Of a DNA stretch of 64,000 nt, positions 1 through 12,026 are shown piece by piece. The position numbers and the translations under genes are program-made. Every line of letters begins with the position of its first letter. The first letter of the stretch is position 1. The DNA lies in the NCBI RefSeq assembly GCF_001579805.1, contig NZ_CP014546.1, positions 1,922,001-1,986,000 of the forward strand, written 5' to 3'. Source of the DNA: Pseudomonas azotoformans (GTDB lineage: Bacteria; Pseudomonadota; Gammaproteobacteria; Pseudomonadales; Pseudomonadaceae). The notes beneath the pieces are model-generated. The model saw only the letters and a program-made list of their open reading frames with translations, did not search any database and was not told the DNA's origin.

Positions 1-615
1 ACTGGGGCCACTGCGGCGCTGCTGTACTTCAGCATCGCGTTCGGCAAGGTCACCATCTCCACGCTGAACTCCTACGGCAGCTTCATGTGCATTGCCACCA
101 TCATCAGCGGCTTCCGTGGCCGCCTGGAGGTCACGCGCTTGCAACGCCTGATGTTCGTGCTGGCGATTGTCGGCACCGCGACCTTGATCGCCTTGCTCGG
201 CCAGCATTCGTTCCTCGGCGCGTTCAAGTCTTTCATCCTGTTCCTGCTGGCGTTCTTCACGCCCTGGAGCGCGATCAACCTGGTGGACTACTACTGCATC
301 ACCCGTGAGCGTTATGACGTGCCGGCGCTGGCCGATCCGAACGGTCGCTACGGTCGCTGGAACCTGCTGGGGATCAGCGTGTACGTGTTCGGCGTGCTGG
401 TGCAATTGCCGTTCATCTCCACCAAGTTCTACACCGGTCCTTTGGTGGCCGCGCTGGGTGATGTGGACATTTCCTGGATCATCGGTCTGGTACTGCCGGC
501 AGCGCTGTATTACCTGTGTGCGAAAAAATGGCACGGCACGGTGCCCGATCAACTGATCCTGCCAACAGAGCAGGGCGCTATACCAAGAACAAACGGGCTG
601 GCGACACAAGCCTGA
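1..615 (+). CDS. NCS1-type permease, C-terminal part (candidate urocanate transporter)
   Basis: The reading frame is open from the first base, so this is the 3' end of a gene that begins upstream. The visible 204 residues are hydrophobic with about five membrane segments and resemble the C-terminal half of cytosine/purine/hydantoin (NCS1) permeases. The stretch WSAINLVDYYCITRERYD with the following DPNGRYGRWN loop is typical of that family. It lies directly upstream of hutX. From memory, the P. fluorescens SBW25 hut locus has an NCS1 gene here called hutTu, proposed as a urocanate transporter; substrate assignment is therefore inference. The family call is firm, the substrate is not. Confidence 0.8.
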   Translation, partial: TGATAALLYFSIAFGKVTISTLNSYGSFMCIATIISGFRGRLEVTRLQRLMFVLAIVGTATLIALLGQHSFLGAFKSFILFLLAFFTPWSAINLVDYYCITRERYDVPALADPNGRYGRWNLLGISVYVFGVLVQLPFISTKFYTGPLVAALGDVDISWIIGLVLPAALYYLCAKKWHGTVPDQLILPTEQGAIPRTNGLATQA

Positions 616-684: not shown

Positions 685-1650
685 ATGAAAATGCATAAGA
701 CCCTGATGGCCACCCTGCTCTCTGCAGGTTTGCTGGCAAGCGCTGGCGCCCAGGCGGCCGGCTGGTGCGAATCCGGCAAGCCGGTGAAATTCGCAGGCCT
801 GAACTGGGAAAGCGGCATGTTGCTCACCGACATCCTGCAAACCGTGCTGGAAAAAGGCTACGACTGCAAAACCGACAGCCTGCCGGGCAACTCCATCACC
901 ATGGAAAACGCCCTGAGCAGCAACGACATCCAGATCTTTGCCGAAGAGTGGGTGGGCCGCAGTGAGGTCTGGAACAAGGCCGAGAAGGCCGGCAAAGTCG
1001 TCGGCGTCGGCGCCCCGGTAGTCGGTGCCATCGAAGGCTGGTACGTGCCGCGTTATGTGATCGAAGGCGATGCCAAACGCAAGCTGGAAGCCAAGGCCCC
1101 CGACCTGAAAAACATTGCTGATCTGGCCAAGTACGCCTCGGTGTTCAAGGACCAGGAAGAACCCTCCAAAGGCCGTTTCTACAACTGCCCGGCCGGTTGG
1201 ACTTGCGAGCTGGACAACAGCGAAATGCTGAAAAGCTACGGCCTGGAAAATTCCTACACCAACTTCCGCCCAGGCACCGGCCCGGCGTTGGATGCAGCGG
1301 TGTTGTCGAGCTACAAGCGTGGCGAGCCGATCCTGTTCTACTACTGGTCGCCAACCCCGCTGATGGGCCAGGTCGACCTGGTCAAGCTGGAAGAAAAACC
1401 CGGTGTGGATAAAAGCGTGAGCATCAAGGTCGGCCTGTCCAAGACCTTCCACGAGCAAGCCCCGGAACTGGTGGCCGTGCTGGAAAAGGTCAACCTGCCG
1501 ATCGACCTGCTGAACCAGAACCTGGGTCGCATGGCCAAGGAGCGAATTGAGTCGCCAAAACTGGCGAAAATTTTCCTCAAGGAACATCCTGAAGTCTGGC
1601 ACGCCTGGGTGAGCGACGACGCAGCCAAGAAAATCGACGCGGCCTTGTAG
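685..1650 (+). CDS. hutX: HutX, periplasmic binding protein of the histidine/quaternary-amine-type ABC transporter
   Basis: The 321-residue protein starts with a signal peptide (MKMHKTLMATLL, cleavage near AQA-AG around residue 24) and continues as an OpuAC/ProX-type substrate-binding domain. Cysteines in AGWCESG, YDCKTD and YNCPAGWTCEL could form disulfides in the periplasm. The ATG at 685 follows GGGAG at 670-674; an upstream in-frame start at 622 would put 21 residues in front of the signal peptide and is rejected. It is the first gene of hutXWV. The OpuAC family usually binds betaines, but in the hut locus this set is known as a histidine-inducible uptake system. The bases AACAATGA at 681-688 overlap the start and nearly match the Hfq/Crc target pattern. 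Confidence 0.88.
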   Translation: MKMHKTLMATLLSAGLLASAGAQAAGWCESGKPVKFAGLNWESGMLLTDILQTVLEKGYDCKTDSLPGNSITMENALSSNDIQIFAEEWVGRSEVWNKAEKAGKVVGVGAPVVGAIEGWYVPRYVIEGDAKRKLEAKAPDLKNIADLAKYASVFKDQEEPSKGRFYNCPAGWTCELDNSEMLKSYGLENSYTNFRPGTGPALDAAVLSSYKRGEPILFYYWSPTPLMGQVDLVKLEEKPGVDKSVSIKVGLSKTFHEQAPELVAVLEKVNLPIDLLNQNLGRMAKERIESPKLAKIFLKEHPEVWHAWVSDDAAKKIDAAL

Positions 1651-1721: not shown

Positions 1722-2573
1722 ATGTTTCCTGAGAGTTTTACGTTTTCCATCGCCGACTGGGTCAACGGTTGGGTGGACTCATTGGTCACCAACTACGGTG
1801 ATGTGTTCCGGCACATTTCCGACACCCTGCTATGGGCCATCGTCAACCTGGAAGGGCTGCTGCGCGCAGCGCCCTGGTGGCTGATGCTGGCCATCGTCGG
1901 CGGCGTCGCCTGGCACGCCACCCGCAAGGTGGTGACCACGGCGGTGATCGTCGGTTTGCTGTTCCTGGTGGGCGCGGTTGGCCTGTGGGACAAGCTGATG
2001 CAGACCCTGGCCTTGATGATGGTCGCCACGGTGATCTCGGTGCTGATCGGCGTGCCGCTGGGCATTCTGTCCGCACGCAGCAATCGCCTGCGCTCGGTGC
2101 TGATGCCACTGCTCGACATCATGCAGACCATGCCGAGTTTCGTGTACCTGATCCCCGTGCTGATGCTGTTCGGTTTGGGCAAGGTCCCGGCGATTTTCGC
2201 CACCGTGATCTACGCCGCGCCGCCGCTGATCCGCCTCACCGACTTAGGGATTCGCCAGGTCGACGGCGAAGTCATGGAAGCCATCAACGCCTTTGGTGCC
2301 AACCGCTGGCAGCAACTGTTCGGCGTGCAACTGCCGCTGGCGTTGCCGAGCATCATGGCCGGGATCAACCAGACCACCATGATGGCGCTGTCGATGGTGG
2401 TGATCGCCTCGATGATCGGAGCCCGTGGCTTGGGTGAAGACGTCCTCGTCGGCATCCAGACCCTCAACGTCGGCCGTGGCCTCGAAGCCGGGCTCGCGAT
2501 TGTAATTCTCGCAGTGGTCATCGACCGCATTACCCAGGCCTATGGTCGTCCACGGCATGAGGCGAGCAAATGA
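1722..2573 (+). CDS. hutW: HutW, inner-membrane permease of the hut ABC transporter
   Basis: This 283-residue protein has a single binding-protein-dependent transport permease domain with about six membrane helices. The cytoplasmic EAA-like loop that docks the ATPase is visible as [20 protein letters not shown] around residues 186-205. It resembles ProW/OpuAB of the proline-betaine family. The gene sits 71 bases after hutX and its stop overlaps the start of hutV by four bases (ATGA), so hutWV are translationally coupled. It would pass the HutX ligand across the inner membrane. Confidence 0.9.
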
Positions 2574-3394
2574 CTACTGTCAGCAAAATCGAAGTTAAAA
2601 ACGTCTTCAAGATCTTCGGCGCCCGCTCTAAGGATGCGCTGGCCATGGTCGGCCAGGGCAAGACCAAGGACCAGGTGCTGGCCGAGACCGGTTGCGTGGT
2701 CGGCGTGAACGATTTGTCGTTGAGCATCGGCACTGGCGAGATCTTCGTGATCATGGGGCTGTCGGGTTCCGGCAAGTCCACGCTGGTGCGCCACTTCAAC
2801 CGCCTGATCGACCCCACCAGCGGCGCGATCCTGGTGGACGGCGAAGACATCCTGCAACTGGACATGGAAGCCCTGCGCCAATTCCGTCGGCACAAGATCA
2901 GCATGGTGTTCCAGAGCTTCGGCCTGCTGCCCCACAAGAGTGTGCTCGACAACGTCGCCTACGGCCTGAAAGTGCGTGGCGAAACCAAGCAGGTCTGCGC
3001 CGAACGCGCCCTGCACTGGATCGAAACCGTGGGCCTCAAGGGCTACGAAAACAAATACCCGCACCAGCTTTCCGGCGGCATGCGCCAGCGCGTCGGCCTG
3101 GCCCGCGCCTTGGCGGCGGACACCGACATCATCCTGATGGACGAGGCTTTCAGTGCACTCGACCCACTGATCCGCGCCGAGATGCAGGACCAGTTGCTGG
3201 AGCTGCAAAAGACCCTGCACAAAACCATCGTCTTCATCACCCACGACCTCGACGAGGCCGTGCGCATCGGCAACCGTATTGCGATCCTCAAGGATGGCAA
3301 GCTGATCCAGGTCGGCACCCCTCGGGAGATCCTGCATTCGCCGGCGGATGAATATGTGGATCGGTTTGTTCAGCGGCGGGCGGCGGTGGTTTGA
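2570..3394 (+). CDS. hutV: HutV, ATPase of the hut ABC transporter
   Basis: The 274-residue protein is an ABC nucleotide-binding subunit of the ProV/OpuAA type. Walker A is GLSGSGKST at about residues 63-71. The signature is [16 protein letters not shown], Walker B is [12 protein letters not shown], and the switch histidine lies in FITHDLDEA. An N-terminal segment of about 40 residues precedes the core, as in ProV. The C-terminal CBS domains of E. coli ProV are absent, so the osmotic sensing known for ProV/OpuA is not expected. The start overlaps hutW by four bases, and the next gene starts 16 bases after the stop. Confidence 0.92.
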
Positions 3395-3410: not shown

Positions 3411-4919
3411 ATGTTCCAGGCAGCAAAAATCATCATTGCCGACGCCCCGCTGCGCTGGCAGGACGTCGTCGCCGTCGCCCGCCAAGGCGCGGTGCTTGAA
3501 CTCTCGGGCCAGGCCTGGGCACGCATCGACAATGCCCAGGCCATCGTGCAACGCATTGTCACCAGCGGTGAGCGCGCCTATGGCGTGAACACCGGCCTGG
3601 GCGCGCTGTGCAATGTGTCGCTCAAGGGCGAGCAACTCAGCCAGCTGTCGCGCAATACTTTGCTGAGCCATGCCTGTGGCGTTGGCCCGGTGCTGAGCGA
3701 CGAGCAGACCCGTGCGATCATCTGCGCGGCGATCATCAACTACAGTCATGGCAAATCCGGCCTGCATCCGCAGGTGGTGCACTCGTTGCTGGCGTTGCTC
3801 AACCACGGCATCACACCGCAAGTGCCGTCCCAGGGTTCGGTGGGTTACCTGACCCACATGGCCCATGTGGGCGTGGCCTTGTTGGGCGTGGGCGATGTGA
3901 GTTACCGAGGCCGCATCGTTCCGGCTCAAGAGGCCTTGAGCGCGGAAGGATTGCATCCGGTCGTGCTTGGCGCCAAGGACGGCCTGTGCCTGGTCAACGG
4001 CACGCCGTGCATGACCGGCCTGAGCTGTCTGGCCCTGGCCGACGCCCATCACTTGCTGCAGTGGGCCGACGTGATCGGCGCCATGAGTTTTGAAGCCCAG
4101 CGCGGCCAGATCGACGCGTTTGACGAAGAGATCATCGCCTTAAAACCGCACCCTGGCATGCAACACGTCGGCATCAACCTGCGCGCCTTGCTCGATGGCA
4201 GTGAAGTGATCGCCAGCAGCAAAGGCATCCGCACCCAGGACGCCTTGAGCATCCGTTCGATCCCACAGATCCACGGTGCAGCCCGCGACCAGGTGGAACA
4301 CGCCACCCGCCAGATCGAGACCGAACTCAACAGCGCCACCGACAACCCGCTGGTACTCGGCACGCCAGACCATTACCGCGTGGTGTCCCAGGCCAACCCC
4401 CACGGACAATCCGTGGCACTGGCGGCGGACATGCTGGCAATCGCCATGGCCGAAATCGGCTCGGTGGCCGAACGCCGCCTGGACCGCCTGATCAACCCGC
4501 ACGTCAGCGGCTTGCCGGCGTTTCTGGTGAGCAACCCTGGGGTCAACTCCGGGATGATGATCGTGCAGTACGTCGCCGCTTCGCTGTGTGGGCAAAACCG
4601 CCAGTTGGCGCAACCGGCGGTGCTCGACAACTTCGTCACCTCGGGCCTGCAGGAAGACCACCTGAGCATGGGCACCAATGCCGCGCTCAAGCTGCACCAG
4701 GTGTTGGCCAACGTGACGCAGATCCTCGCTATCGAGTACTTGCTGGCGGCCCAGGCGTTCGAATTCTTGAAGGACCAGCGCTTCGGCGCCGGCACCGACC
4801 GCGCGTGGCGCCTGTTGCGTGAAGTGGTCCCGGCCTACGAGCAGGACCGCTGGCTGGCGCCGGACATTGCGGCCGCTGCCCAACTGCTCAAAGACACCGA
4901 CTTACCGAATTTGCACTGA
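3411..4919 (+). CDS. hutH1: HutH1, histidine ammonia-lyase homologue lacking the MIO triad (predicted pseudoenzyme)
   Basis: A 502-residue member of the aromatic amino-acid lyase (HAL/PAL) family, with the fold conserved end to end and the motif AYGVNTGLG near the N-terminus. The Ala-Ser-Gly that cyclises to the MIO electrophile is missing: after GSVG (residues 142-145) comes YLTHMAH, where HutH2 has [11 protein letters not shown], a net in-frame loss of three residues. The Tyr of the DPYSLR motif is replaced (DALSIR) and the Phe of GNFH is Pro (ANPH), while the QEDH glutamate remains. The ATG at 3411 is chosen over an upstream in-frame start at 3348 because that one lies inside hutV. Lyase activity is therefore unlikely; the reading frame is otherwise intact, so a structural or regulatory role is possible. 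Confidence 0.85.
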
Positions 4920-4939: not shown

Positions 4940-4957
4940 TTCAAAAGGAGTATGAAT

Positions 4958-6490
4958 GTGACTGCGCTAAACCTGATTCCAGGCCAACTGAGCCTTGCCC
5001 AACTGCGAGCCATCTACCAGCAGCCGGTAACCCTCAGTCTGGATGACAGCGCCACGGCGCAGATCGACGCCAGTGTTGCTTGCGTGGAGCAGATTCTCGC
5101 CGAGAACCGCACCGCCTACGGCATCAACACCGGTTTCGGCCTGCTGGCCTCGACCCGCATCGCAAGTGTTGACCTGGAAAACCTCCAGCGTTCCCTGGTG
5201 CTGTCCCACGCCGCCGGCGTCGGTGAGCCGATCAGCGATGCCCTGGTGCGGCTGGTCATGGTGCTCAAGGTCAACAGCCTCAGCCGTGGGTTCTCCGGGA
5301 TCCGCCGCCAGGTGATCGACGCGCTGATCGCGCTGATCAACGCCGAGGTGTACCCGCATATTCCGTTGAAAGGTTCGGTCGGTGCCTCCGGCGACCTGGC
5401 GCCCTTGGCGCACATGTCCCTGGTGCTGCTGGGCGAAGGCAAGGCGCGCTACAAGGGCGAATGGCTGGAAGCCACCGACGCGCTGAAAGTCGCCGGCCTG
5501 ACGCCGCTGACCCTCGCCGCCAAAGAAGGCCTGGCGCTGCTCAACGGCACCCAGGTGTCCACCGCGTACGCCCTGCGTGGCCTGTTCGAAGGCGAAGACC
5601 TGTTCGCCAGTGCCCTGGCATGCGGCGCGCTCACCGTGGAAGCAGTGCTGGGTTCGCGCTCCCCCTTCGACGCACGCATTCATGCCGCACGCGGCCAGCG
5701 TGGGCAGATCGATTCAGCAGCAGCCTATCGTCACCTGCTGGGCGAAAGCAGCCAGGTGTCTCAGTCGCACCAGAACTGCGACAAGGTGCAGGATCCATAC
5801 TCGCTGCGCTGCCAGCCGCAAGTCATGGGCGCGTGCCTGACCCAGTTCCGCCAGGCCGCCGAGGTGTTGGTGGTAGAAGCCAACGCCGTATCGGATAACC
5901 CGCTGGTCTTTGCCGCCGAAGGTGACGTGATTTCCGGCGGTAACTTCCACGCCGAACCGGTGGCCATGGCCGCCGACAACATGGCACTGGCCATCGCTGA
6001 AATCGGCTCGCTCAGCGAGCGCCGTATCTCGCTGATGATGGACAAGCACATGTCGCAACTGCCGCCGTTCCTGGTGGGCAATGGTGGTGTGAACTCCGGC
6101 TTCATGATCGCCCAGGTGACCGCTGCCGCGCTTGCCAGCGAAAACAAGGCGCTGGCCCATCCCCATAGCGTCGACAGTCTGCCGACCTCGGCCAACCAGG
6201 AAGACCACGTTTCGATGGCCCCGGCTGCGGGCAAGCGCCTGTGGGAAATGGCCGAGAACACCCGTGGCGTTCTCGCCGTGGAATGGCTGGCCGCGTGCCA
6301 GGGCCTGGACCTGCGCGAAGGCCTGAAAACCTCGCCTGCGCTGGAAAAAGCGCGCGGGATCCTGCGCGACAAAGTGGCGTTCTATGAGAAGGACCGTTTC
6401 TTCGCACCGGACATCAACGCCGCCAGCGAGTTGTTGGCCAGCCGCTGCCTGAATGAGCTGGTGCCGGCCAAGCTGCTGCCGAGCCTCTAA
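4958..6490 (+). CDS. hutH2: HutH2, histidine ammonia-lyase
   Basis: The 510-residue enzyme deaminates L-histidine to urocanate, the first step of the hut pathway. The MIO-forming triad Ala143-Ser144-Gly145 is present in [12 protein letters not shown]. Other catalytic motifs are [33 protein letters not shown] and NQEDHVSM. I start it at the GTG at 4958, because AGGAG (4946-4950) is seven bases away. The in-frame ATG at 4952 is only one base from AGGAG, and the GTG gives the 510-residue length known for Pseudomonas HutH. It is the functional partner of the degenerate hutH1 upstream. Confidence 0.95.
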
Positions 6491-7998: not shown

Positions 7999-8013
7999 TC
8001 TAGGGAGGCGTTG

Positions 8014-9219
8014 ATGAAAACGCTTTGGCAACACTGCCACGTCGCAACCATGGCACAGGGCAAATACTCGATCATCGAGGATGCCGCCATGGTGACCGTC
8101 GGTTCGCTCATCGAGTGGATCGGCCCCCGCAGCCAGGCGCCCACGGCGGATTACGCCCAGGTGCATGACCTGCAAGGCGCGTGGGTCACCCCCGGGCTGA
8201 TCGACTGCCACACCCACACGGTGTTCGGCGGCAACCGCAGCGGCGAGTTCGAGCAACGCCTCGAAGGCGTGAGCTACGCCGAGATCGCGGCCAAGGGCGG
8301 CGGTATTGCCAGCACTGTGCGTGCCACCCGTGCGGCGACGGAAGATGAACTGTTTGCCAGCGCTGAAAAACGCCTGCGCAGTCTGCTACGCGATGGCGTG
8401 ACCACCGTGGAGATCAAGTCCGGCTACGGCCTGGACCTGGCCAACGAACGCAAGATGCTGCGCGTCGCCCGTCGCCTTGGTGAAGCGCTGCCGGTCAGCG
8501 TGCGCGCCACGTGCCTGGCGGCCCACGCGTTGCCGCCGGAATACAAGGACCGCGCCGACGACTACATCGAGCACATCTGCGCCGAGATGCTGCCGGCCTT
8601 GGCGGCGGAAGGGCTGGTGGACGCGGTGGATGCGTTTTGTGAATACCTGGCGTTTTCCACCGAGCAGGTGGAGCGCGTGTTCAAGGTTGCCCGGCAACTC
8701 GGCCTGCCGGTGAAACTGCACGCCGAGCAACTCTCATCGCTGCACGGCTCCAGCCTGGCGGCGCGTTACCAGGCGCTGTCGGCGGACCACCTGGAGTTCA
8801 TGACCGAAGAAGACGCCATCGCCATGGCCGCTGCCGGCACCGTCGCGGTGCTGCTGCCGGGCGCGTTCTACTTCCTGCGCGAAACCCAGTTGCCGCCGAT
8901 GGACGCCCTGCGCAAGCACGGCGTGAAAATCGCCATCGCCAGCGACCTCAACCCCGGCACCTCGCCGGCTCTGTCGGTGCGCCTGATGCTGAACATGGCC
9001 TGCACACTGTTCCGCATGACCCCGGAAGAAGCCTTGGCGGGCGCCACTCAACATGCGGCCACTGCGTTGGGCATGGGCGATACCCACGGCTCCCTGGAAG
9101 TGGGCAAGGTCGCGGATTTCGTCGCCTGGCAGATTGATCGTCCTGCCGACCTGGCCTATTGGCTGGGCGGCGAGCTGGATAAACGCGTCGTGCGCCATGG
9201 CGTCGATGTCACTGTTTGA
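8014..9219 (+). CDS. hutI: HutI, imidazolonepropionase
   Basis: The 401-residue amidohydrolase opens the imidazolone ring to give N-formimino-L-glutamate, the third step of histidine degradation. Metal and substrate motifs visible are [20 protein letters not shown] near residue 68, KSGYGL, KLHAEQ and SDLNPGTSP near residue 310. The ATG at 8014 follows GGGAGG at 8003-8008. An in-frame TTG three bases earlier is possible but unlikely. It is 15 bases after hutT and 12 bases before hutG, within one operon. Confidence 0.95.
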
Positions 9220-9231
9220 GGAGTACTGTTC

Positions 9232-10032
9232 GTGGATAAGGTTCTGAACTTCAAACAAGGCCGTGTGCCGCTGCTGATCAGCATGCCCCACGCCGGCCTG
9301 CGCCTGACGCCTGCTGTCGAGGCGGGGTTGATTCCCGAGGCGCAAAGCCTGCCGGACACCGATTGGCATATCCCCACGCTGTATGACTTTGCCGAGGCGC
9401 TGGGTGCTAGCACTTTGTCGGCAGAATATTCCCGATTTGTGATCGACCTGAACCGGCCATCCGACGACAAGCCGCTGTATGTCGGCGCCACCACCGGGCT
9501 GTATCCGGCGACGCTGTTCGACGGCGTGCCCTTGTTCCGCGAGGGGCTGGAGCCGAACGAGACCGAGCGCGCCAGTTACTTGCAGAAAATTTGGGGCCCG
9601 TATCACCGCACCCTGCAGGAGGAACTGGCACGGCTCAAGGCCGAGTTCGGCTACGCCTTGCTGTTCGATGCGCACTCGATCCGTTCGGTCATCCCGCACC
9701 TGTTCGAAGGCAAGCTGCCGGACTTCAACCTCGGCACCTTCAATGGCGCCGCCTGTGATCCGGAACTGGCCAGCCAGTTGGAAGCTATTTGCGCGACGCA
9801 TCCGCAGTACACCCATGTGCTGAACGGGCGCTTCAAGGGCGGCCACATCACCCGGCATTACGGTGACCCGGGCCAGGATATCCACGCGGTGCAGCTGGAG
9901 CTGTGCCAGAGCGCCTATATGGAAGAGTTCGAGCCGTTCCGGTATCGAGCGGATCTGGCCGAGCCGACGCGGGTGGTGCTCAAGCAATTGTTGCAAGGTT
10001 TGTTGGCGTGGGGGCAGAAGCGCTACGGCTGA
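9232..10032 (+). CDS. hutG: HutG, N-formylglutamate deformylase
   Basis: The 266-residue protein belongs to the N-formylglutamate amidohydrolase family and releases formate to give glutamate, the last step of the five-step pseudomonad hut pathway. Conserved zinc/catalytic segments seen are SMPHAGL near the N-terminus, LFDAHSIRS, and GRFKGGHITRHYGDP in the C-terminal half. It starts with GTG at 9232, with GAGGAG about eight bases upstream across the hutI stop. HutF, which would make formylglutamate, is not in the window; it is expected upstream. Confidence 0.93.
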   Translation: MDKVLNFKQGRVPLLISMPHAGLRLTPAVEAGLIPEAQSLPDTDWHIPTLYDFAEALGASTLSAEYSRFVIDLNRPSDDKPLYVGATTGLYPATLFDGVPLFREGLEPNETERASYLQKIWGPYHRTLQEELARLKAEFGYALLFDAHSIRSVIPHLFEGKLPDFNLGTFNGAACDPELASQLEAICATHPQYTHVLNGRFKGGHITRHYGDPGQDIHAVQLELCQSAYMEEFEPFRYRADLAEPTRVVLKQLLQGLLAWGQKRYG

Positions 10033-10161: not shown

Positions 10162-11094
10162 ATGAAAAAACTGTTGTTGACCCTCACCGGCGCCGCGTTG
10201 CTCAGCGCCAACGCCATGGCCGCCGAACCGGCCTCCTGCAATAACATCCGCATGGGCGTGGTCAGTTGGACCGACGTGGTCGCCACTTCCGGCATGGCCG
10301 ACGTGCTGCTCAATGGCCTCGGCTACGACAGCAAGCAGACCAGCGCCGTGCAGCAGATCATCTTTGCCGGCATCCGCGACAAGCGCCTGGATATTTTCCT
10401 CGGTTACTGGAAACCGGCGATGGACAACAACATCGCGCCGTTCCTGGCGGCCAAGCAGGTCAAGGTATTCGATACACCCAGCCTCGCCGACGCCCAGGCC
10501 ACCCTGGCCGTGCCGCAATACGTGGCGGATGCGGGCTTGAAGACCTTCGCCGATATCGCCCGTTTCAAGGACAAGCTCGGCGGCAAGATCTATGGCATCG
10601 AGCCGGGCAGCGGTGCCAACACCGATATCCAGAAAATGATCGACACCAACCGCTTCGGCCTTGGCGGCTTCAAGTTGGTTGCCTCCGGTGAAGCCGGGAT
10701 GCTGGCAGCGGTGCAGCGCGCGGTGAATCGCAAGGAATTCGTGGTGTTCGTCGGTTGGACCCCGCACCCGATGAACATCAATATGAAGATGGCCTATCTC
10801 ACCGGCAGTGAAGACGTATTCGGCCCCGACGAAGGCCGCGCCACCGTCTCCACCGTCACCGCGCCGGATTTTGCCGAGCGCTGCCCCAACGCCAATCGCC
10901 TGTTGGAAAACCTCACCTTCACTGCCGCCCAGGAAAGCCAGTTGATGGTGCCGATCATGGAGCGCAAATCGCCGCAGGACGTGGCCAAGCAATGGCTGCG
11001 TGATCACCCCGAGGATTTGCAGCGCTGGCTGGCTGGGGTCAAGGCGCTCGATGGCAGCGATGGGGCGGCGGCAGTGCAGGCGAGTCTTAAATGA
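10162..11094 (+). CDS. Orphan choline/betaine-type ABC substrate-binding protein (ChoX/CaiX/BetX-like)
   Basis: The 310-residue protein has a signal peptide (MKKLLLTLTGAALLSANAMA) and an OpuAC-type domain close to choline-binding ChoX, with RMGVVSWTDVVATSGMADVL and FLGYWKPAMDNN. No permease or ATPase gene is adjacent. In P. aeruginosa, orphan binding proteins (CaiX, BetX) are known to feed a shared CbcWV core, and this is probably such a case. Its stop overlaps the start of the esterase that follows by four bases. The exact ligand (choline, carnitine, betaine or an ester of these) cannot be read from the sequence. Confidence 0.8.
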   Translation: MKKLLLTLTGAALLSANAMAAEPASCNNIRMGVVSWTDVVATSGMADVLLNGLGYDSKQTSAVQQIIFAGIRDKRLDIFLGYWKPAMDNNIAPFLAAKQVKVFDTPSLADAQATLAVPQYVADAGLKTFADIARFKDKLGGKIYGIEPGSGANTDIQKMIDTNRFGLGGFKLVASGEAGMLAAVQRAVNRKEFVVFVGWTPHPMNINMKMAYLTGSEDVFGPDEGRATVSTVTAPDFAERCPNANRLLENLTFTAAQESQLMVPIMERKSPQDVAKQWLRDHPEDLQRWLAGVKALDGSDGAAAVQASLK

Positions 11095-12026
11095 GTCGAT
11101 ACCCGATCTCGCCAGAACTGGCAGCGTTCGTGGAGAAGACTGAGTCCTTCACCCGTGACGACTCATCGCTGGCGGGCTTACGCCAAAACTACGACAGCAT
11201 GTGCCAGGCATTCACCCCGGCGAAACCCGAAGGCTTGCAGGTCGAAGACCTGACCCTGGCCGGCGTAGGCGTGCGCAGTTATCTGCCGACCTCGCCGGTT
11301 CCTGCTGATGGCTGGCCTTGCCTCCTTTATATGCACGGCGGCGGTTGGGTCGTCGGCGGGCTGGATTCCCACGATTTCATCTGCTTCGAGCTGGCCACGG
11401 CCTTGCAGGTGTTGGTGATCGCCATCGATTATCAGCTGGCGCCTGAACACCCGTTCCCGGCCGCCTATGAGGATTGTCGCGCCGTGTGGCAGGCCATCCA
11501 GGCGGGGCAGGCGCCGTATGCCATCAACCTGCGGCGCCTGGTGGTCATGGGCGACAGTGCAGGCGGCAACCTGGCGGCAGCATTGTGTATGGGATTGCGC
11601 GACGACGGGCAACCGTTGCCGCGCGCCCAGGTCTTGATCTATCCGGGGTTGGGCGGCCCCTGCGACTTGCCATCGCGGCGCGACTGCATGGACGCGCCCT
11701 TGCTCAGCAGCGCCGACACCGATGGCTACCTGGCGCTGTACCTGCAGGGCAGCGACAGGCCGTCGCCCTACGCGATGCCGCTGTCGGCCGCAGACTTCAG
11801 CGGTTTGCCCAAGGCGTTGATCGCCGTGGCCCAGTTCGACCCGCTGCGCGACGACGGCATGCTCTACGCCGAACGTCTGCAGGCGGCAGGCGTGGCCGCC
11901 GTGCTGTATCCCGGCAAAGGCCTGGTCCACGGCTGCCTGCGGGCGCGGCGGCAAGCGCCGGAAGTGGACCGGCTCTATGAATACCTGCTGGACTACCTGG
12001 GGAGCGAAGGGCTGACACAGGTCTAA
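11091..12026 (+). CDS. Alpha/beta hydrolase, hormone-sensitive-lipase (family IV) esterase
   Basis: The 311-residue protein carries the oxyanion motif HGGGW near residue 82 and the nucleophile elbow GDSAGGN near residue 154. The candidate acid is the Asp in QFDPLRDDG and the histidine lies in LVHGCL. No signal peptide is seen, so it is cytoplasmic. The ATG overlaps the preceding binding-protein gene (ATGA), so the two are probably co-translated. This suggests hydrolysis of an ester taken up with a quaternary amine head group, which is inference. From memory, PAO1 has a similar esterase near its carnitine genes. Confidence 0.82.
   Translation: MSRYPISPELAAFVEKTESFTRDDSSLAGLRQNYDSMCQAFTPAKPEGLQVEDLTLAGVGVRSYLPTSPVPADGWPCLLYMHGGGWVVGGLDSHDFICFELATALQVLVIAIDYQLAPEHPFPAAYEDCRAVWQAIQAGQAPYAINLRRLVVMGDSAGGNLAAALCMGLRDDGQPLPRAQVLIYPGLGGPCDLPSRRDCMDAPLLSSADTDGYLALYLQGSDRPSPYAMPLSAADFSGLPKALIAVAQFDPLRDDGMLYAERLQAAGVAAVLYPGKGLVHGCLRARRQAPEVDRLYEYLLDYLGSEGLTQV

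Follow-up and report, generated by a model that had tools for sequence, protein, structure and literature searches.

A MIO-less histidase homologue in the Pseudomonas hut operon as a candidate MIO-independent lyase of histidine betaine

The hut operon of Pseudomonas azotoformans carries two adjoining genes of the histidase family, and one of them, hutH1, raises the question of what such a protein does once the Ala-Ser-Gly triad that forms the MIO cofactor is gone. In histidine ammonia-lyase (HAL), the MIO ring and Tyr280 handle the amino group of the substrate, and the initial annotation of the window (the whole 64,000-nucleotide stretch of DNA that was analysed) took HutH1 for a pseudoenzyme kept for another role, such as forming mixed tetramers with HutH2. 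Three points are already established: the HAL fold, catalysis without MIO (ergothionase), and the fact that P. fluorescens SBW25 can do without hutH1, its second “histidase.” On the evidence below, HutH1 is quite probably an enzyme of some kind, and we lean somewhat towards a MIO-independent lyase that would split imported histidine betaine (hercynine) into urocanate and trimethylamine.

BLASTP of HutH1 against the HutH2 of the window (38% identity), itself a close match to P. putida HAL, left a three-residue gap exactly at the Ala-Ser-Gly of HutH2, so the in-frame loss read in the initial annotation is real, and alignment also bore out its reading that catalytic Tyr280 and Phe329 are replaced and Tyr53 and Glu414 kept (residue positions in P. 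putida HAL numbering; features of the window in Table 1). His83, Asn195, Gln277, and Arg283 are likewise kept, and all six retained residues (Tyr53, His83, Asn195, Gln277, Arg283, and Glu414) are unchanged in 37/37 aligned HutH1-type rows, in every one of which position 280 is Leu and position 329 Pro or Ala. Judged by alignment, HutH1 has dropped MIO and Tyr280, yet the positions predicted to engage the substrate’s imidazole and carboxylate and to act on its beta proton remain. The position of Tyr387 is Tyr in 42/42 HutH1-type rows and Val or Ile in 26/26 MIO-containing rows, with Tyr also present in one MIO-containing Thermoplasma HAL outside those 26 (7tqr); Trp218 occurs in 41 of the 42 and is absent from all 26 of those MIO-containing rows. 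Tyr146 and His149 are constant in the HutH1-type rows, which were picked by a motif containing both.

Table 1. Features of the hut region, with positions numbered from the first nucleotide of the window.
Feature	Position	Strand	Remark
hutTu-like permease gene, 3′ part	1..615	+	Gene starts upstream of the window (L143)
hutX	685..1650	+	ProX-type substrate-binding protein with three ProX tryptophans
hutW	1722..2573	+	ABC permease, ChoW/ProW type
hutV	2570..3394	+	ABC ATPase, ChoV/ProV type
hutH1	3411..4919	+	502 aa, HAL fold, no MIO; predicted to act as a betaine lyase without this cofactor
Tyr57 (HAL Tyr53)	3579..3581	+	Kept; alignment
Site of the absent MIO triad Ala-Ser-Gly	3834..3866	+	Residues 142-152; Tyr146 right after GSVG
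Leu279 (HAL Tyr280)	4245..4247	+	Replaced as in ergothionase; motif QDALSIR; alignment
Pro330 (HAL Phe329)	4398..4400	+	Pro/Ala throughout the clade; motif ANPH; alignment
Tyr387	4569..4571	+	Alignment
Glu415 (HAL Glu414)	4653..4655	+	Kept; alignment
hutH2	4952..6490	+	Canonical MIO histidase, 512 aa
hutI (presumed)	8011..9219	+	Named by position
hutG (presumed)	9232..10032	+	Named by position

The profile models place HutH1 in the aromatic lyase fold, with Pfam PF00221 spanning residues 14-471 at 557 bits, and its score against the NCBIfam hutH equivalog TIGR01225 is just above the cut-off (541.5 vs. 539.15 bits; HutH2 scores 729.4 bits), although two marks of HutH, the Ala-Ser-Gly triad for MIO and the catalytic Tyr280 (Leu279 here), are absent. 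A current NCBI equivalog rule thus lets a protein without the cofactor pass for a histidase, and pipelines that use TIGR01225 would call it histidine ammonia-lyase on a margin of about 2.4 bits. The AlphaFold model has the HAL fold with a mean pLDDT of 86.1, falling to about 73 around the lost triad and below 50 at residues 375-378 and 407-414, the latter beside Glu415. In a Foldseek search with this model, HAL entries ranked first (TM 0.91 to HAL) and ergothionase 6s7j twelfth (TM 0.89); because both match so closely, the two cannot be told apart by fold alone. PDB titles include the HAL mutants Y280F, F329A/G, and D145A.

The triad loss is shared far beyond this genome. In total, 280 of 298 sampled Pseudomonas genomes gave HutH1 matches with E ≤ 1e-60. 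Counted by hand, the HutH1 type (E ≤ 1e-130) is present in 208, weaker matches alone in 72, and none in 18, with no stop in any HutH1 match among the genus matches listed. Relatives at 47-70% identity occur in other orders and classes, one at 71% identity lies on an Erwinia plasmid, and others lie on Burkholderia and Rhizobium plasmids. At the aligned site, 91/91 loci (89 distinct) whose HutH1 match reaches 45% identity or more, drawn from 114 fetched loci with rows chosen by similarity and not by motif, have GSxGY without ASG and no stop in the match. The best 80 named loci of a longer list (54 Burkholderiaceae, 17 Rhizobiaceae, and 9 others), which was obtained with search patterns that demanded QD[AP]LS, also have GSxGY at this site in 80/80 cases when rows are again taken by similarity, with a stop inside the match in one and an intact frame of at least 440 aa in 78 (exceptions L247 and L248). 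Since the site state is the same throughout both sets, chance and a sequencing or frame error were set aside. A class-wide pattern scan was positive in 2 of 369 genomes, including that of the window, with a pattern that requires HMAH and so misses rhizobial variants.

Pairwise dN/dS was estimated by the Nei-Gojobori method for 595 pairs from 35 genomes near the window that have both genes, giving a median of 0.070 for HutH1 (5-95% of pairs, 0.045-0.168) and of 0.029 for HutH2 (5-95%, 0.015-0.104). Both genes are under purifying selection, with weaker constraint in HutH1. A recent pseudogene was set aside on this ratio together with the 91 stop-free matches; the 502-residue frame is intact, as first described. 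The proposal that the gene has been kept for some role therefore stands on the dN/dS of 0.070, but not the reading of that role as one for a pseudoenzyme.

A phylogeny of 69 proteins with the MIO columns removed placed the 37 HutH1-type rows in one exclusive clade (support 100/99), which takes in Pseudomonas, Burkholderiaceae, and Rhizobiaceae, and all 26 MIO-containing rows on one side of a branch with support of 98/92; a single change of MIO state suffices on this tree. In a second tree of 49 rows, to which three ergothionase-type proteins had been added, the HutH1 type and the ergothionase type formed separate clades, each supported at 100/99, and the grouping of the HutH1, ergothionase, and L004 types against the remainder was supported at 92/79 only. 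With the rooting by midpoint and several branches long, MIO may have been lost a single time.

Other MIO-less relatives were encountered alongside. L004/L145, in the window’s own genome (C1:6721118-6722452), has GSLGESD at this site, finds its best PDB match by sequence in ergothionase, and lies beside genes for a relative of ornithine cyclodeaminase, for binding proteins of the OpuAC and NMT1 types, and for a TonB receptor. A further family (L052/L144, L146, and L147 in G276, G285, and G271) has GSVGYLGPEGH with Tyr280 and Phe329 kept, and in these three loci it lies directly behind a polar-amino-acid/opine-type ABC transporter.

Within the window, hutH1 is directly preceded by hutXWV, which encodes an ABC transporter of the ChoXWV/ProXWV type. 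HutX and 19/19 homologues, two of which are paralogues away from HutH1, have tryptophans at the places that match residues 65, 140, and 188 of E. coli ProX. These three ProX tryptophans form the betaine cage, but they may be general to that protein family. A part in histidine uptake has been reported for HutXWV, and SBW25 hutTu, listed in the stretch between hutU and hutX, is a urocanate transporter, in the available text of PMC8871633. After hutG, at 10162-12026, the window also holds a gene for a ChoX-type choline-binding protein and a lipase/esterase-like gene.

The transporter differs from locus to locus. Among 25 regions of a wider set, the transporter beside HutH1 is HutXWV in 6 (L125-127, L130, L139, and L140), a BCCT betaine/carnitine/choline carrier assigned by Pfam and located between hutU and hutH1 in 6 (L119-121, L128, L134, and L135), a polar-amino-acid-type ABC transporter in 10, and none that was recognised in 3. 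An ABC ATPase gene directly precedes HutH1 in 73 of the best 80 named loci (63 polar-type and 10 HutV-type), and a recognised transporter is missing in the other 7. The binding protein of the commoner, Erwinia-type operon has octopine- and nopaline-binding proteins as its nearest PDB entries (214 and 207 bits), and on the Erwinia plasmid the ABC genes and HutH1 are followed by a permease 52% identical to that encoded between hutU and hutX in the window. One BCCT region, L135 (genome G1081), is a hut locus that also holds, next to hutG, an L004-type MIO-less lyase and an OpuAC-type betaine-binding protein.

HutU was found in 18/18 HutH1 genomes tested, and was not found on two HutH1 plasmid records in which the plasmids were searched alone. 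Among the best 80 named loci, HutU lies in the flank of 13, a HutC-like gene is nearby in 67, and HutU-I-F-G stands behind HutH1 in 6 of the remaining 13, so that hutC or hutU-I-F-G accompanies HutH1 in 73; in six Caballeronia or Burkholderia loci, ABC-HutH1-HutU-HutI-HutF-HutG all run in one direction. The lyase, urocanase, and the urocanate-sensing repressor thus keep company with importers of three types, of which two belong to betaine families. This company would be explained if HutH1 turned an imported histidine derivative into urocanate.

By PAO1 numbering, PA5093 of P. aeruginosa is presumably a hutH1 orthologue, and the gene order U-H2-T-X-W-V-H1-I-G at L130 supports this assignment. 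PA5093 has been called hutG, and its mutant grows poorly on histidine (PMC12772324). The gene order suggests an orthologue of hutH1, in conflict with the published label, and the “hutG” mutant deserves a second look.

Pseudomonas HutC binds TGTA-N2-TACA, as footprinted in the available text of PMC12977541, and this core precedes only 5 of 73 operons. In an unbiased palindrome count over the 54 operons of the Burkholderiaceae type, whose binding protein is of the Erwinia type, a palindrome stood before 32 of them, whereas controls gave no more than 6, and after widening on the same data TGT[AC]TA[GT]ACA precedes 51 of these 54, compared with a mean of 1.45 and a maximum of 6 in random windows of the same loci; the 54 promoters are related and not independent, and the final pattern was derived from them. 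None of the 19 other operons has it. The palindrome is probably of HutC type, being close to the footprinted sequence.

It is unlikely that HutH1 is a histidase that has lost its activity and persists because it partners HutH2, in structure or regulation, or because it binds histidine or urocanate. MIO and Tyr280 are lost as such a reading would have it, HutH2 adjoins HutH1 in 39/39 loci nearest the window (within a locus of roughly 4.5 kb), and by hand count, with the homologues typed in part, 207 of the 208 HutH1 genomes of the genus have at least one further homologue. To this extent the evidence favours a HutH2 partner. A HutH2-type gene was found by similarity in 17 of 18 HutH1 genomes tested (broken in G080). 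However, HutH2 lies in the flank of only 11 of the 25 wider-set regions and 3 of the best 80 named loci, where the gene before HutH1 is in 73 cases a transporter ATPase, which argues against an obligate partner in spite of the loci nearest the window. G1081 has HutH1 and HutU and no canonical HutH, with another MIO-containing lyase present (L188), and is suggestive only. The unchanged substrate-side positions and Tyr53 in 37/37 rows also speak against a dead protein. The initial annotation held MIO to be essential for this chemistry, but in this fold it is not: ergothionase is MIO-free yet active (available text of PMC13405746), so the loss need not end catalysis, and “pseudoenzyme” is not supported for a protein that shares most of its active-site pattern. 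In G080 (C1:580809-582337), a stop interrupts the HutH2-type gene and HutH1 is intact; as a natural case of broken HutH2 this genome was dropped, since an ATPase gene is also split there (L123) and completeness is 86.

If HutH1 is active, histidine itself is an unlikely substrate because MIO is gone, and the loss would fit a substrate with an amine that departs readily by itself. Hercynine (N-alpha-trimethylhistidine), which is made by fungi and actinobacteria, is most likely the natural compound that fits best. In the mechanism that we infer, for substrate, catalysis, and the parts of single residues alike, HutXWV would import a histidine derivative with a quaternary ammonium group, of which hercynine is the most likely, and HutH1 would bind its imidazole and carboxylate through residues common to histidase. 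Tyr57 (HAL Tyr53) would take the beta proton, and trimethylamine would depart without the MIO electrophile, being a good leaving group as it stands; the replacement of Tyr280 by Leu and of Phe329 by Pro or Ala may free the space that the three methyl groups need. The urocanate formed would enter HutU-HutI-HutF-HutG and relieve HutC.

Several observations count against hercynine. In the commoner operon type, the binding protein resembles octopine/nopaline binders and not betaine binders, HutXWV has its reported role in histidine uptake (available text of PMC8871633), and HutH2 is adjacent in all 39 nearest loci. The Lys of the ergothionase type is Tyr in HutH1, a Tyr also present in MIO-containing 7tqr; the palindrome is absent before 19/19 other operons and HutU from the two plasmid records; model confidence is low beside Glu415; and loci without a recognised transporter (3/25 and 7/80) exist. 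The conflicting assignment of PA5093, with the poor growth of its mutant on histidine, also counts here. The first of these points favours another N-substituted histidine, such as a histidine opine, that HutH1 would split to give urocanate together with an amine or an amino acid, and the urocanate context fits this as well. By general chemistry, however, a secondary amine leaves less readily when MIO is absent, and both remaining transporter types belong to betaine families; this is the least probable of the readings considered.

Also decidedly unlikely is that HutH1 is an ergothionase, splitting ergothioneine into thiourocanate and trimethylamine. The loss of MIO, Leu at 280, and the retention of Tyr53, His83, Gln277, Arg283, and Glu414 are as in 6s7j, and betaine-type transporters adjoin HutH1 at part of the loci. 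Yet the two types form their separate clades, with HutH1 outside that of 6s7j, and ergothionase-type rows have Ser at HAL 195 (4/4) and Lys at 387 (3/4), where the HutH1 type has Asn and Tyr; a plain ergothionase was set aside on these grounds. Of the ergothionase-type genes L273, L274, and L275, the last lies on a Burkholderia replicon and is without annotation, and the annotated loci L273 and L274 list no other hut gene. The hut context of HutH1 points to urocanate.

The cleavage of hercynine by HutH1 would explain both the second, dispensable “histidase” of SBW25 and a betaine-type ABC transporter in a hut operon. There is a little better than an even chance that a large class annotated as histidine ammonia-lyase consists of hercynine trimethylamine-lyases with their own importer, an unrecorded route to urocanate; in the literature searched, mostly outside subscription papers, no statement was found of MIO loss in HutH1 or of a hercynine lyase, and no paper that brings hercynine, trimethylamine, and urocanate together. 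If so, hercynine would pass through urocanate into central metabolism with release of trimethylamine in Pseudomonas, Burkholderiaceae, rhizobia, and relatives. This would define a catabolic route for hercynine, name a trimethylamine source in soil and plant bacteria, and give the aromatic lyase superfamily its second reaction without MIO.

Among known systems, the nearest in operon layout are hutH1 of P. fluorescens SBW25 and, in Sinorhizobium meliloti, the hutH that is linked to hutXWV (available text of PMC8871633; L272). The S. meliloti plasmid copy is also without ASG; both genes are described or annotated as histidases, and neither their MIO loss nor the betaine idea was found in the literature text consulted. 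P. putida HAL (1b8f) shares with HutH1 the fold (TM 0.91), the residues on the imidazole and carboxylate sides, and the hut operon, but MIO, Tyr280, and Phe329 are lost in HutH1. Ergothionase of Treponema denticola (6s7j/6s7q) resembles HutH1 in its HAL fold without MIO, in Leu at HAL 280, and in the same retained Tyr, His, Gln, Arg, and Glu, and differs in its separate clade, 28-32% identity to HutH1, the residues at 195 and 387, and Phe329, kept in the ergothionase type and lost in HutH1. Its substrate is ergothioneine, from which it removes trimethylamine and not ammonia (available text of PMC13405746 and PMC7653990), the same leaving group that HutH1 would release from hercynine.
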